64,000 bases of DNA from Gammaproteobacteria bacterium (GTDB lineage: Bacteria; Pseudomonadota; Gammaproteobacteria; Pseudomonadales; JAUIET01), in assembly GCA_030429735.1 (NCBI GenBank), contig JAUIET010000002.1:124001-188000 (forward strand), in the 5' to 3' direction. The notes under the pieces are model-generated. The model did no database searches and was not told where the DNA came from. It saw nothing but the letters and a program-made list of their open reading frames with translations. Positions 15,021 to 20,693 of the stretch are shown here, in pieces. Position 1 is the first letter of the stretch. Every line of letters begins with the position of its first letter. A program made the position numbers and the translations under genes.

Positions 15021-16259
15021 TTACTTGGCGTGCAACACCACCGGCAGGTCGGTAATACCGCGAACAAAGTTAGATTTCAGGCGGGTAGGCTTGCCTACCA
15101 CGTCAACTCTGTCGAAGCGCTTGAGTATCTCTTCCCAAACCAGTCTGAGCTGCATCTCGGCTAAACGATTGCCCATGCAACGGTGAACGCCGAATCCAAA
15201 GGAAATGTGTTGACGGGCCCGGTTACGGTCAATCAGAAATTCATCCGGACGTTCAATTTTTGTTTCGTCCCGGTTCCCGGACACATACCACAGTGCCACT
15301 TTGTCACCCTGTTTGATGTGTTTACCACGAAACTCAACGTCTCGAGTTGCGGTTCGGCGCATATGCATTAACGGCGTTTGGAAGCGGATGATCTCAGAGA
15401 CCATGTTCGGTATCAGCCCAGGGTCAGCCTTTAGTTTTTCGTATTCAGCGGGGTTCTCGTTCAGCATCAACACGCCACCGGAAATGGAATTGCGAGTAGT
15501 GTCGTTGCCACCCACAATCAGCAAGATCAAATTACCAAGGAATTCCATCTGGTCCATCTCTTTAAAGATGTCTGAATGCGCCATCAATGTAATGAAGTCG
15601 TATTTTCCTTCGGGTGATTGCTGTGCGCGCTCATTCCAAATCTCTGTGAACACGGTAAGACACTCAATCAACGCTTCTTCACGCTGTTCTTTGGTCACGC
15701 TGTCGTCACCAGCAATTTCTGGCGACGCCGTTGCCATGTCGGACCAGAACGTAAGCTTGCGCCGCTCTTCAAATGGAAAATCGAACAGCGTGGCCAGCAT
15801 CTGTGTGGTGAGCTCCACCGAGACGCGATCAACCCAGTTAAACGTTTCACCAATCGGCAATTCATCCATAATGTTGCCGATCCGTTCGCGAATCAACGGT
15901 TCCATCATCGCAAGGCTTTGAGGTGACACGGACGGTGTGACTACTTTGCGTTGACTGTCGTGTTTAGCGCCGTCCATCGCAATGAATTGAGCCACCGTGA
16001 AATCCGGGTCCTGATCACCAAGAACAATGGCAGGAAACGATGAGAACACATCGGTGTTTTTCTCAACTTCCATGATGTCGTCAAATCGCGTGATCGACCA
16101 GAAGGGTCCAAAGTCGCTGTCTGCGCAGTAGTGCACGGGGTCTTCATCACGTAAGCGCTTGAACATAGGCCACTGCGCATCGTGCTCGTAAAGGCTTGGG
16201 TTAGAGGGGTTGATCTGGTCTAACGGTGTGTCGTTCGAATAGATACTTGCAGTCGCCAC
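15021..16259 (-). CDS. Cytochrome P450, CYP153-like alkane/fatty-acid hydroxylase
   Basis: A 412-residue soluble P450. Heme-binding loop FGFGVHRCMGNRLAE, I-helix VGGNDTTRN and K-helix EIIR are all present. Long stretches match what I know of CYP153 terminal hydroxylases, for example RLRDEDPVHYC, VSVELTTQMLATLFDFPFEE and KVALWYVSGNRDE. CYP153 enzymes hydroxylate the terminal carbon of medium-chain alkanes or fatty acids and need a ferredoxin and ferredoxin reductase. Neither partner gene is adjacent, so electrons must come from elsewhere in the genome. It is transcribed alone, with lipA downstream on the same strand. Confidence 0.88.
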   Translation of the reverse strand: MATASIYSNDTPLDQINPSNPSLYEHDAQWPMFKRLRDEDPVHYCADSDFGPFWSITRFDDIMEVEKNTDVFSSFPAIVLGDQDPDFTVAQFIAMDGAKHDSQRKVVTPSVSPQSLAMMEPLIRERIGNIMDELPIGETFNWVDRVSVELTTQMLATLFDFPFEERRKLTFWSDMATASPEIAGDDSVTKEQREEALIECLTVFTEIWNERAQQSPEGKYDFITLMAHSDIFKEMDQMEFLGNLILLIVGGNDTTRNSISGGVLMLNENPAEYEKLKADPGLIPNMVSEIIRFQTPLMHMRRTATRDVEFRGKHIKQGDKVALWYVSGNRDETKIERPDEFLIDRNRARQHISFGFGVHRCMGNRLAEMQLRLVWEEILKRFDRVDVVGKPTRLKSNFVRGITDLPVVLHAK

Positions 16260-18684: not shown

Positions 18685-19473
18685 ATGACATCAGAGTCTG
18701 GTGTGAACAATAAAGTAGCAGTCATCACTGGCGGTGCCTCGGGAATGGGCCGTGCAGCCGCGCTGCGGCTGGCTGCTGAGAATTTCAGGCTATGCATAGC
18801 TGATCTTGATCTGGACGCCGCCAGCGTATTTGCCTCTGAGCTTCGGGAAAACGGTGTTGAGGCGATAGCGCTGGAAGTTGATGTCAGCGATGAACTGGCC
18901 AACAGACGTTTGTGTGAGCAAACGCTCGCCGAATACGGTCAAATAGATTGCGCGTTTCTGAACGCCGGTATTCTTAATGTACCTGCATCCATCATGGACA
19001 CGACAGCAGCGGATTGGGACCGCATCATCGCGGTTAACTTGCGCTCAATGTTTCTCGGCATTCAATCGCTTGCTGCGCCCATGATCGAAAGCTCCCGGGG
19101 CGCTATTGTCATGACTGCGTCACTTGCAGGACTTAGGGGTGATCTGAATATGGCCGGTTACGTGGCGGCCAAGCATGGCGTTATTGGTCTGATGAAGGCG
19201 GCCGCCGCTGAGCTGGCTGAACATCAAATTCGGGTGAATGCGATTTGTCCAGGAGCGATCGATACCCCCATGATTCTCGATAGTTATCGTGCCAGCGATG
19301 AGGCTTGGCGCGCCTTGGGTAAGCTGCAGCCCCTGGGGCGCATTGGCAAGCCCGAGGAGGTCGCGGAGCTGGTGTACTTTCTACTAAGTGATCAAGCCAG
19401 TTTTATTACCGGCGGAGCATTCCCCGTCGATGGGGGCGCATCCGCCGTTAATGGCCCCCTGAGACGCCGCTGA
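18685..19473 (+). CDS. Short-chain dehydrogenase/reductase
   Basis: A 262-residue classical SDR. The cofactor-binding GGASGMGR follows the first strand; an acidic residue after the second strand (IADLDLD) favours NAD(H). The NAG motif (LNAGIL), catalytic Ser in [10 protein letters not shown], and YVAAKHG (Tyr-x-x-x-Lys) are present, as is the C-terminal PVDGG. The substrate cannot be told. A strong ribosome site (AAGGAG) precedes the ATG. The selenoprotein candidate follows closely on the same strand and may share its transcript. Confidence 0.9.
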
Positions 19474-19523: not shown

Positions 19524-20693
19524 ATGCGTGCCAATGAGTTCCGGAATATCCTGATGGCCGATGCAATGATGGCTTACCCGCATCTTCGACACCCGTTCGA
19601 AGAACGGCCTATTCACGCGCAAGGCAGCGTCACAGTGTTGTGCGCGGGGCGCCAGGTCACACTCAGTGACACCGGAACAGGAGACGGTCTGTTAATCAAT
19701 CCAGATGATCTTTCATCAATCAATGGCTTCACACTCAAGCCACAGGGAGCGTGTTTTGAAGACCTGTGCGTGCCAGTTACGGAGTCTCTTTTTGTAGAAC
19801 AAGGCGAAAGGCGTTGGTTTGACCTTACCGCATTTGCTGATTTGATTGGCCAACCCTGTGTCGCAGACACAAGCGCCAGGGTGTGGAGTTTTGCTGAAGT
19901 GCCATCGCGCCGTGACAGCATGATGAACAATGCGATGGCGCCGGCGTTTAAAGTGACTGATCGTCAGGGGCAGGTGATTGAATTAGCTGACCTGAAGGGC
20001 AAGAAAGCGCTGATCGTTACCTGGTCATCGTGGTGAGGCTGCTTTCTTGACGTGTCCGTGTGGCAACGTATTTATGAAGAAATTAACGATCCAGATTTTG
20101 TCATCCTGAGTGCAGCCCAGGACACCGGAGGTGAGGCGGTTGCGGGGCCGATTTTTGATGCGGCGAACGCCACGTATATACAAGTGGTAGACACCGATCA
20201 CGTCATTAGCAGCGCGTTTAATTTTATTAACGTGCCGTCGGCTGCGTGGATAGACGAGGAGGGTCGAATCGTTCGCATTGATGAAGGTACTTATGCGCAA
20301 CTTCATGAAATTGGCAATGATGAGCAATCGATTACCTTCGGTACCGATGTGTATTCACCCGCTTTAAAAGACTGGGTCGCCAATGGCGCAGACAGTGTGC
20401 ATGTGCAGTCTGCAGAAACAGTGAGCAGTAATATTCGTCAATTCACCCGCGAACACTTGCAGGCCAATGCCGCATTTAGGCTGGCTAACCTGTTTCGCTC
20501 GCATGGCCATAGTGAAAAGGCGGAGCGCTATTGGGAAATGGCGCGTGAGCTGCACCCGGAAAGCATAAACTATTTTCGGCAGAACCTGACTCTGTCAGAG
20601 GAAGGGTCGGCGGGCGAGAGTTTTATGAAACTGCGGGGTGAGTACATCAGCCAGGGCAAAGACTACTACCGGCCGCTGGATATTGACTTGTAA
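19524..20693 (+). CDS. Candidate selenoprotein: redoxin (thioredoxin-fold) protein with in-frame TGA
   Basis: One frame runs from 19524 to 20693 (389 residues) with a single internal TGA at 20034-20036; no other stop interrupts it. An N-terminal region of unknown type (~1-130) is followed by a redoxin domain that reads KALIVTWSSW-[TGA]-GCFLDVSVWQ. The TGA is residue 171, exactly where thioredoxin-like proteins have the first active-site Cys; Cys173 is two residues on. The fold continues across it (FVILSAAQ, then FNFINVPSAAWIDEEGRIV with the cis-Pro loop NVPSA). A TPR-like tail follows (~310-370). A SECIS-like hairpin lies downstream (20050-20069). No strong ribosome site marks the ATG; a TTG at 19485 in the same frame is an alternative. 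The rival reading is a nonsense mutation splitting the gene. Confidence 0.72.
20050..20069 (+). promoter_or_regulatory. SECIS-like hairpin after the in-frame TGA
   Basis: The lower stem pairs ACGT (20050-20053) with ACGT (20066-20069), then G54 with C64 (A65 bulged). U55 is bulged, C56-C57 pair with G63-G62, and the loop is GUGU (20058-20061). A bulged U below a short stem and a loop with GU are the features SelB reads in the E. coli fdhF SECIS. The loop G is 22 bases after the UGA, within the usual bacterial range. The upper stem is short (2 pairs), so this is suggestive only. Confidence 0.5.

Follow-up and report, generated by a model that had tools for sequence, protein, structure and literature searches.

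The 64,000-nucleotide stretch that was analysed, here called the window, contains a reading frame interrupted once by TGA, and the question raised by this locus is whether that TGA ends translation or encodes selenocysteine (Sec). The frame (19524-20693, plus strand) has 390 codons and a final TAA stop, with the TGA at 20034-20036 as its sole inner stop, and the standard code splits it into two ORFs of 183 and 213 residues. A preliminary description made from the sequence alone had taken these ORFs for one frame broken only by the TGA, and translation confirmed this; the quoted peptide KALIVTWSSW-U-GCFLDVSVWQ matches the translation when TGA is read as U. As was also claimed there, no further inner stop follows in the frame. 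The part 3′ of the TGA is conserved as protein. ATG 19524 leaves the frame open as well, but ATG 19554 (residue 11, MADAMMAYP) appears the more likely start, since the N-terminal Met of close homologues aligns with residue 11. From ATG 19554, the product would have 379 residues with Sec at position 161; residue numbers below count from 19524, which places Sec at 171. The features of the locus are as follows.

19554-20693, plus strand: predicted selenoprotein gene, ResA/TlpA-like redoxin with a UGC motif (translation with TGA as U, N-terminal alignment, NF041054 at 222.5 bits, AlphaFold2 pLDDT 85.2)
19752-19769, plus strand: N-terminal C-x4-C pair, C77 and C82, conserved throughout the family (alignment of members)
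19935-20288, plus strand: Redoxin / AhpC-TSA domain, residues 138-255 (Pfam PF08534 and PF00578; ResA fold match)
20034-20036, plus strand: UGA codon, putatively Sec, at the position of the N-terminal redox Cys (residue 171; homologue columns, alignment of homologue L049)
20040-20042, plus strand: TGC codon for Cys 173, the partner Cys in the UGC motif (Cys in all 91 aligned rows)
20050-20069, plus strand: SECIS-like hairpin, loop CGUGU at 20057-20061 with G20058, bulged A20065 (stem, loop and codon conservation)
20463-20561, plus strand: TPR-like repeat in the helical C-terminal part, residues 314-346 (TPR_2 E 0.01, model helices)

Two Pfam domains span the TGA, Redoxin (PF08534, E 1.7e-07, residues 138-255) and AhpC-TSA (PF00578, E 5.1e-07, 30.1 bits against a cut-off of 26, residues 138-250). 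The TPR_2 match in the window protein (E 0.01) is under Pfam's cut-off, and TPR_2 was found in 19 of 35 aligned members at E ≤ 0.01. C77 and C82 are invariant in all 35 aligned members, and the pattern C-x4-C-[LIVM]-P is present in 93 of the 95 rows of at least 200 residues, Cys forms included. An AlphaFold2 model, built from 35 sequences with Cys replacing Sec, has a pLDDT of 85.2 and a pTM of 0.86, with motif residues 172-174 under 50, and consists of a strand-rich N-terminal part, a thioredoxin-like middle and a helical tail. Its best fold match is ResA (1su9_B), with a TM-score by target of 0.77, an rmsd of 1.9 and 26% identity. When homologue L049 was aligned, the Sec position met the first CxxC Cys of 3kcm and of ResA, and the partner Cys met the second via a one-residue gap. 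This alignment and the TGC codon of the Cys forms bear out the earlier reading that TGA replaces the first redox Cys, with a Cys two residues on.

Homologues were collected from 390 genomes of the order at a family threshold of E ≤ 1e-40. The redoxin family occurs in 12 of these genomes and gave 17 matches. A single inner TGA is present in 12 of the matches (the window's own included) and absent from 5, and the aligned codon is TGC in all five Cys forms. An in-frame UGA at the position where homologues carry Cys is what is found in bacterial selenoproteins. All 8 genomes with the TGA form have tRNA-Sec, 7 over the Rfam cut-off and 1 by ARAGORN (G349, 45.8 bits, just under the cut-off and called tRNA-SeC). 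In the 4 genomes with the Cys form only (among them G091, 83% complete, and G119, 90% complete with 8% contamination), tRNA-Sec was over the cut-off in none, and their lower-scoring candidates (E ≤ 1e-6) prove to be tRNA-Ser, -Leu and -Gly. Since only 54 of the 390 genomes carry tRNA-Sec (E ≤ 1e-11), the association between the TGA form and tRNA-Sec is not trivial.

A wider scan covered 84,980 species with one genome each, and the best 80 of 156 relatives were retained. TGA stands at the window's column in all 80 of these best 80 of 156, as read by a motif pattern that all 80 fitted, even though one of the two scan patterns required a Cys codon and was biased against TGA forms. They are mostly bins titled Gammaproteobacteria or Pseudomonadales; three among the best 80 of 156 carry the label Acidobacteria(ota) or Vicinamibacterales, and two that of Hydrogenedentota. 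With one sequence (L042, with 1 TGA) left out here and from later row counts, TGA is present in 91 of 91 TGA-form rows, five of which are identical in the tree to rows from the other search and are probably from the same genomes. The motif in 92 rows is WSSWUGC in 44, WASWUGC in 42, WAPYUGC in 4 and YASWUGC in 1, and was not read in 1 (L042). Thus the column, which the preliminary description had proposed to compare, holds TGA far beyond the source genome, and Cys forms also exist. The existence of Cys forms would fit a sequencing error or a recent nonsense mutation that turned a Cys codon into TGA, but the same TGA in every one of the best 80 of 156 relatives makes this explanation extremely improbable. 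As a separate observation, three genomes of the order encode two or three different UGC selenoproteins each (G254 with L036, L047 and L048; G297 with L034 and L045; G349 with L037 and L046), and the copies within each genome come from separate tree branches.

An open frame through TGA would, taken alone, fit any readthrough, including insertion of an ordinary amino acid such as Trp or a reassigned code. However, TGA also works as a stop in this genome, because it terminates the SDR gene immediately 5′ of the frame (TGA 19471-19473). Among the retained homologues (best 80 of 156), 14 have TGA as their final stop. In addition, the residue aligned in the Cys forms is Cys, tRNA-Sec accompanies the TGA form, and ordinary readthrough would leave the codon freeze described below without explanation. 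We therefore give ordinary readthrough hardly any probability.

Reading the UGA as Sec calls for the Sec machinery, and the search for it that had been suggested found selA, selB, selC and selD in the host genome (5.03 Mb, 24 contigs, 97% complete). The tRNA-Sec gene (selC) scores 76.7 bits against an Rfam cut-off of 47 and is also called tRNA-SeC by ARAGORN. It is directly adjoined by selA (563 bits, cut-off 268), and the matches to selB (347 bits, cut-off 242) and selD (226 bits, cut-off 125) are likewise over their cut-offs. A search for other selenoproteins covered two families: molybdopterin oxidoreductase gave 10 matches in the genome, all without an inner stop, and Rdx/SelW gave no match. 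The selD gene (G000:C22:282275-283192) lies inside a 757-residue frame that by eye resembles an Ndh-SelD fusion; such fusions are described in PMC2398784 (Zhang and Gladyshev 2008), and the N-terminal part of the frame resembles the Ndh half by eye. The other genome of the same genus in the samples (G001, 98% complete) lacks both the redoxin gene and tRNA-Sec, and its weak tRNA-Sec candidates are tRNA-Leu, -Gly and -Ser. Since both are missing there, a loss or gain of the selenocysteine trait probably took place inside the genus.

Bacterial SECIS (bSECIS) hairpins lie at a short distance from the UGA and have a G early in the loop. A legend in PMC2398784 mentions apical-loop guanosines of bSECIS. 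The preliminary description had proposed a hairpin at 20050-20069 with a bulged U and a GU-bearing loop. Pairing rules allow this hairpin (A20050-U20069, C20051-G20068, G20052-C20067, U20053-A20066, G20054-C20064, U20055.G20063 and C20056-G20062) with CGUGU as its loop, but the bulged base is A20065, in the 3′ arm, rather than a U. The loop starts 20 nt past the UGA. When the 57 nt from the TGA were folded alone, a different structure was obtained (-6.3 kcal/mol, z +1.45), which is no better than shuffles.

Conservation was examined in the 91 TGA-form rows, with hairpin nucleotides numbered from the T of TGA. The invariant positions include nt 20, 21, 23, 25 and 28-31, and the upper stem (21-31, 22-30, 23-29) is formable in all 77 distinct sequences. 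The loop is CGUGU in 84 of 91 rows, and its second nucleotide is G in every one of the 91. The lower stem varies: 10 sequences have it straight, 39 carry a bulged A, 16 have a bulged G and 12 a 1x1 mismatch, in classes that were defined after the sequences were seen; where nt 19 is a pyrimidine, nt 33 is complementary in 10 of 10 rows (C-G in 7, U-A in 3). Codon entropy (scale 0 to 1) was compared over 104 columns in which a single amino acid makes up at least 85%, excluding Met and Trp. Counted over the rows that have the column's usual residue, the lowest three values belong to columns 177 (GTG in 81 of 81), 179 (GTG in 84 of 85) and 178 (CCC in 83 of 85); the next-lowest column has an entropy of 0.30 and the median is 0.91. 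Elsewhere in the same genes, the codons of columns 177, 178 and 179 are used at 33%, 27% and 33%. Relatedness alone fails to explain this freeze, because all columns share one tree. The codon run 177-179 is absent from all five Cys homologues, although the upper stem can be built in one of them (L038) and nt 25 is G in three.

Formal covariation is weak because the stem is almost invariant. RNAalifold found 4 pairs, with double-sided changes in none, and the score after a slide of +1 (0.208) was above that of the structure itself (0.033). Only 1 of 5 covariation measures beat all 500 shuffles, namely paired cells (73.5 against 72.5 percent). Codon constraint, unlike covariation, is the informative test for this hairpin. 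Codon-randomised folding of the 91 rows gave a modest mean z of -1.18 (55 rows below -1 and 87 below 0; window -1.03), and the five Cys rows gave 1.29, -0.15, 0.74, 1.5 and 0.82. Taken together, conservation places a hairpin with an apical-loop G soon after the UGA, with the bulged U absent, which suggests that the hairpin at 20050-20069 is likely the SECIS element.

The preliminary description had also named relaxed selection after the TGA as a sign against Sec, and the reverse was found. A comparison of the window with L049 shows differences at 19% of nonsynonymous and 69% of synonymous sites 5′ of the TGA, and at 10% and 77% 3′ of it; ratios of the dN/dS type are rough here because synonymous sites are near or at saturation. 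The substitution pattern indicates purifying selection 3′ of the TGA, where the protein is better conserved than in the part before. In a quick tree, the window groups with Litorirhabdus, Haliea, HTCC2143 and an uncultured Halieaceae bin (5 rows, 99% SH-aLRT).

These data also bear on whether a true selenoprotein family has, in the window, a copy that is starting to decay, with Sec poorly or not inserted and a mostly truncated product. The window sits on a longer end branch (0.28) than its nearest kin (0.075-0.19), its hairpin stretch is weaker (-5.1 kcal/mol against a mean of -7.0 over the 91 rows) owing to the TCC codon at 178, where Ser for Pro gives a U.G pair, and the same-genus genome G001 has neither gene nor tRNA-Sec. 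Against such decay stand the frame without any other stop, the strong purifying selection past the TGA, the T at hairpin nt 22 in 5 other rows of the 91, and sel genes that are present with scores over their cut-offs; we consider decay improbable, if somewhat less so than the two explanations dealt with above.

The complete Sec pathway, the UGA shared across species, the invariant loop G with frozen codons and the conserved downstream frame together argue that the gene very probably encodes a selenoprotein, a ResA/TlpA-like redoxin with Sec at UGA 20034-20036. The Sec-containing redoxin of the preliminary description is thus well supported by the sel genes, the conserved TGA, the frozen codons and the purifying selection.

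Proteins of this kind are already known, as the NCBIfam family NF041054 and as published UGC-containing Prx-like/TlpA selenoproteins. NF041054 (WAxxUGC_long, 'ResA-like WAxxUGC motif-containing protein') is the best NCBIfam match of the window protein, with a similar length, the same three-part layout and a UGC motif; the alignment covers 8-322 of 354 positions (E 9e-66). However, the window motif is WSSWUGC rather than WAxxUGC, and the score of 222.5 bits (210.9 in the genome search) falls below the curated cut-off of 300, so that the window protein is, judged by its sequence, a divergent member. In the tree, a long branch (100% SH-aLRT, to be read with the usual caution about long branches) separates the window's side of 86 rows from 10 rows that hold members over the NF041054 cut-off. 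NF041054 matches 35 of 35 aligned members at E ≤ 1e-10, and the N-terminal and TPR modules around UxC, taken earlier for an unusual architecture, are therefore typical of the family. The term 'WAxxUGC' was not found in the literature searched. PMC2398784 lists a 'Prx-like (UGC-containing)' selenoprotein family (pfam00578, 46 sequences, ocean metagenomes), which the window protein resembles in its pfam00578 domain and UGC, a likeness of description rather than of sequences. A UGC-containing Prx-like kind is also listed in PMC9312934, and a 2026 review (PMC13188914) lists a 'UGC-containing TlpA disulfide reductase family protein' (cd02966). The middle domain shares the thioredoxin-like fold of the ResA/TlpA oxidoreductases (1su9, 1st9, 3kcm), with ResA as the best match, but has UxC, by the one-residue gap seen with L049, in place of CxxC, and the window protein has extra N-terminal and helical C-terminal parts. 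A broader proposal, which we regard as rather doubtful, is an un-named Sec-obligate subfamily without a Cys form, spread across Pseudomonadales and reaching bins labelled Acidobacteriota or Hydrogenedentota, in which UxC and the N-terminal C-x4-C would form an electron relay.

Co-expression with the neighbouring SDR, suggested earlier, did not hold up. Flanks of up to about 4 kb (about 1.5 kb for 15 loci) were searched at 95 homologue loci, and SDR-like matches were weak (29-38% identity) and present at only 5, so an operon with the SDR was rejected; DbpA gave no match at E ≤ 1e-15 in the same flanks. Elsewhere in the window, 15021-16259 (minus strand) encodes a cytochrome P450 like NF041802 (solanimycin P450 SolI), at 474 bits against a cut-off of 850.

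In the proposed mechanism, SelB with Sec-tRNA would bind the hairpin at 20050-20069, and Sec would be inserted in place of the N-terminal redox Cys of the redoxin. The motif is most naturally read as a selenolate nucleophile whose resolving Cys follows two residues later: the selenolate at residue 171 would attack a disulfide or peroxide, and Cys 173, whose spacing to Sec is one residue shorter than in CxxC, would form a selenenylsulfide in the resolving step. Electrons may be handed on by the conserved C77/C82 pair. Whether the redoxin acts as a peroxidase or a reductase is a guess. No signal peptide is apparent by eye in the window protein, which suggests that the redoxin is probably cytoplasmic. 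In a sister clade that shares the UGC site, L041:1129-2262 and L043:1135-2283 (minus strand) have an N-terminus that looks by eye like a signal peptide, and this branch of the family is possibly exported, unlike the window's clade.

Because the standard code divides this gene into two ORFs, annotation can overlook a selenoenzyme of this type or give it a wrong name. The codon freeze offers a simple way to recognise, from an alignment, a SECIS element within coding sequence, and the UxC site with its second conserved Cys pair provides a concrete enzyme for testing.
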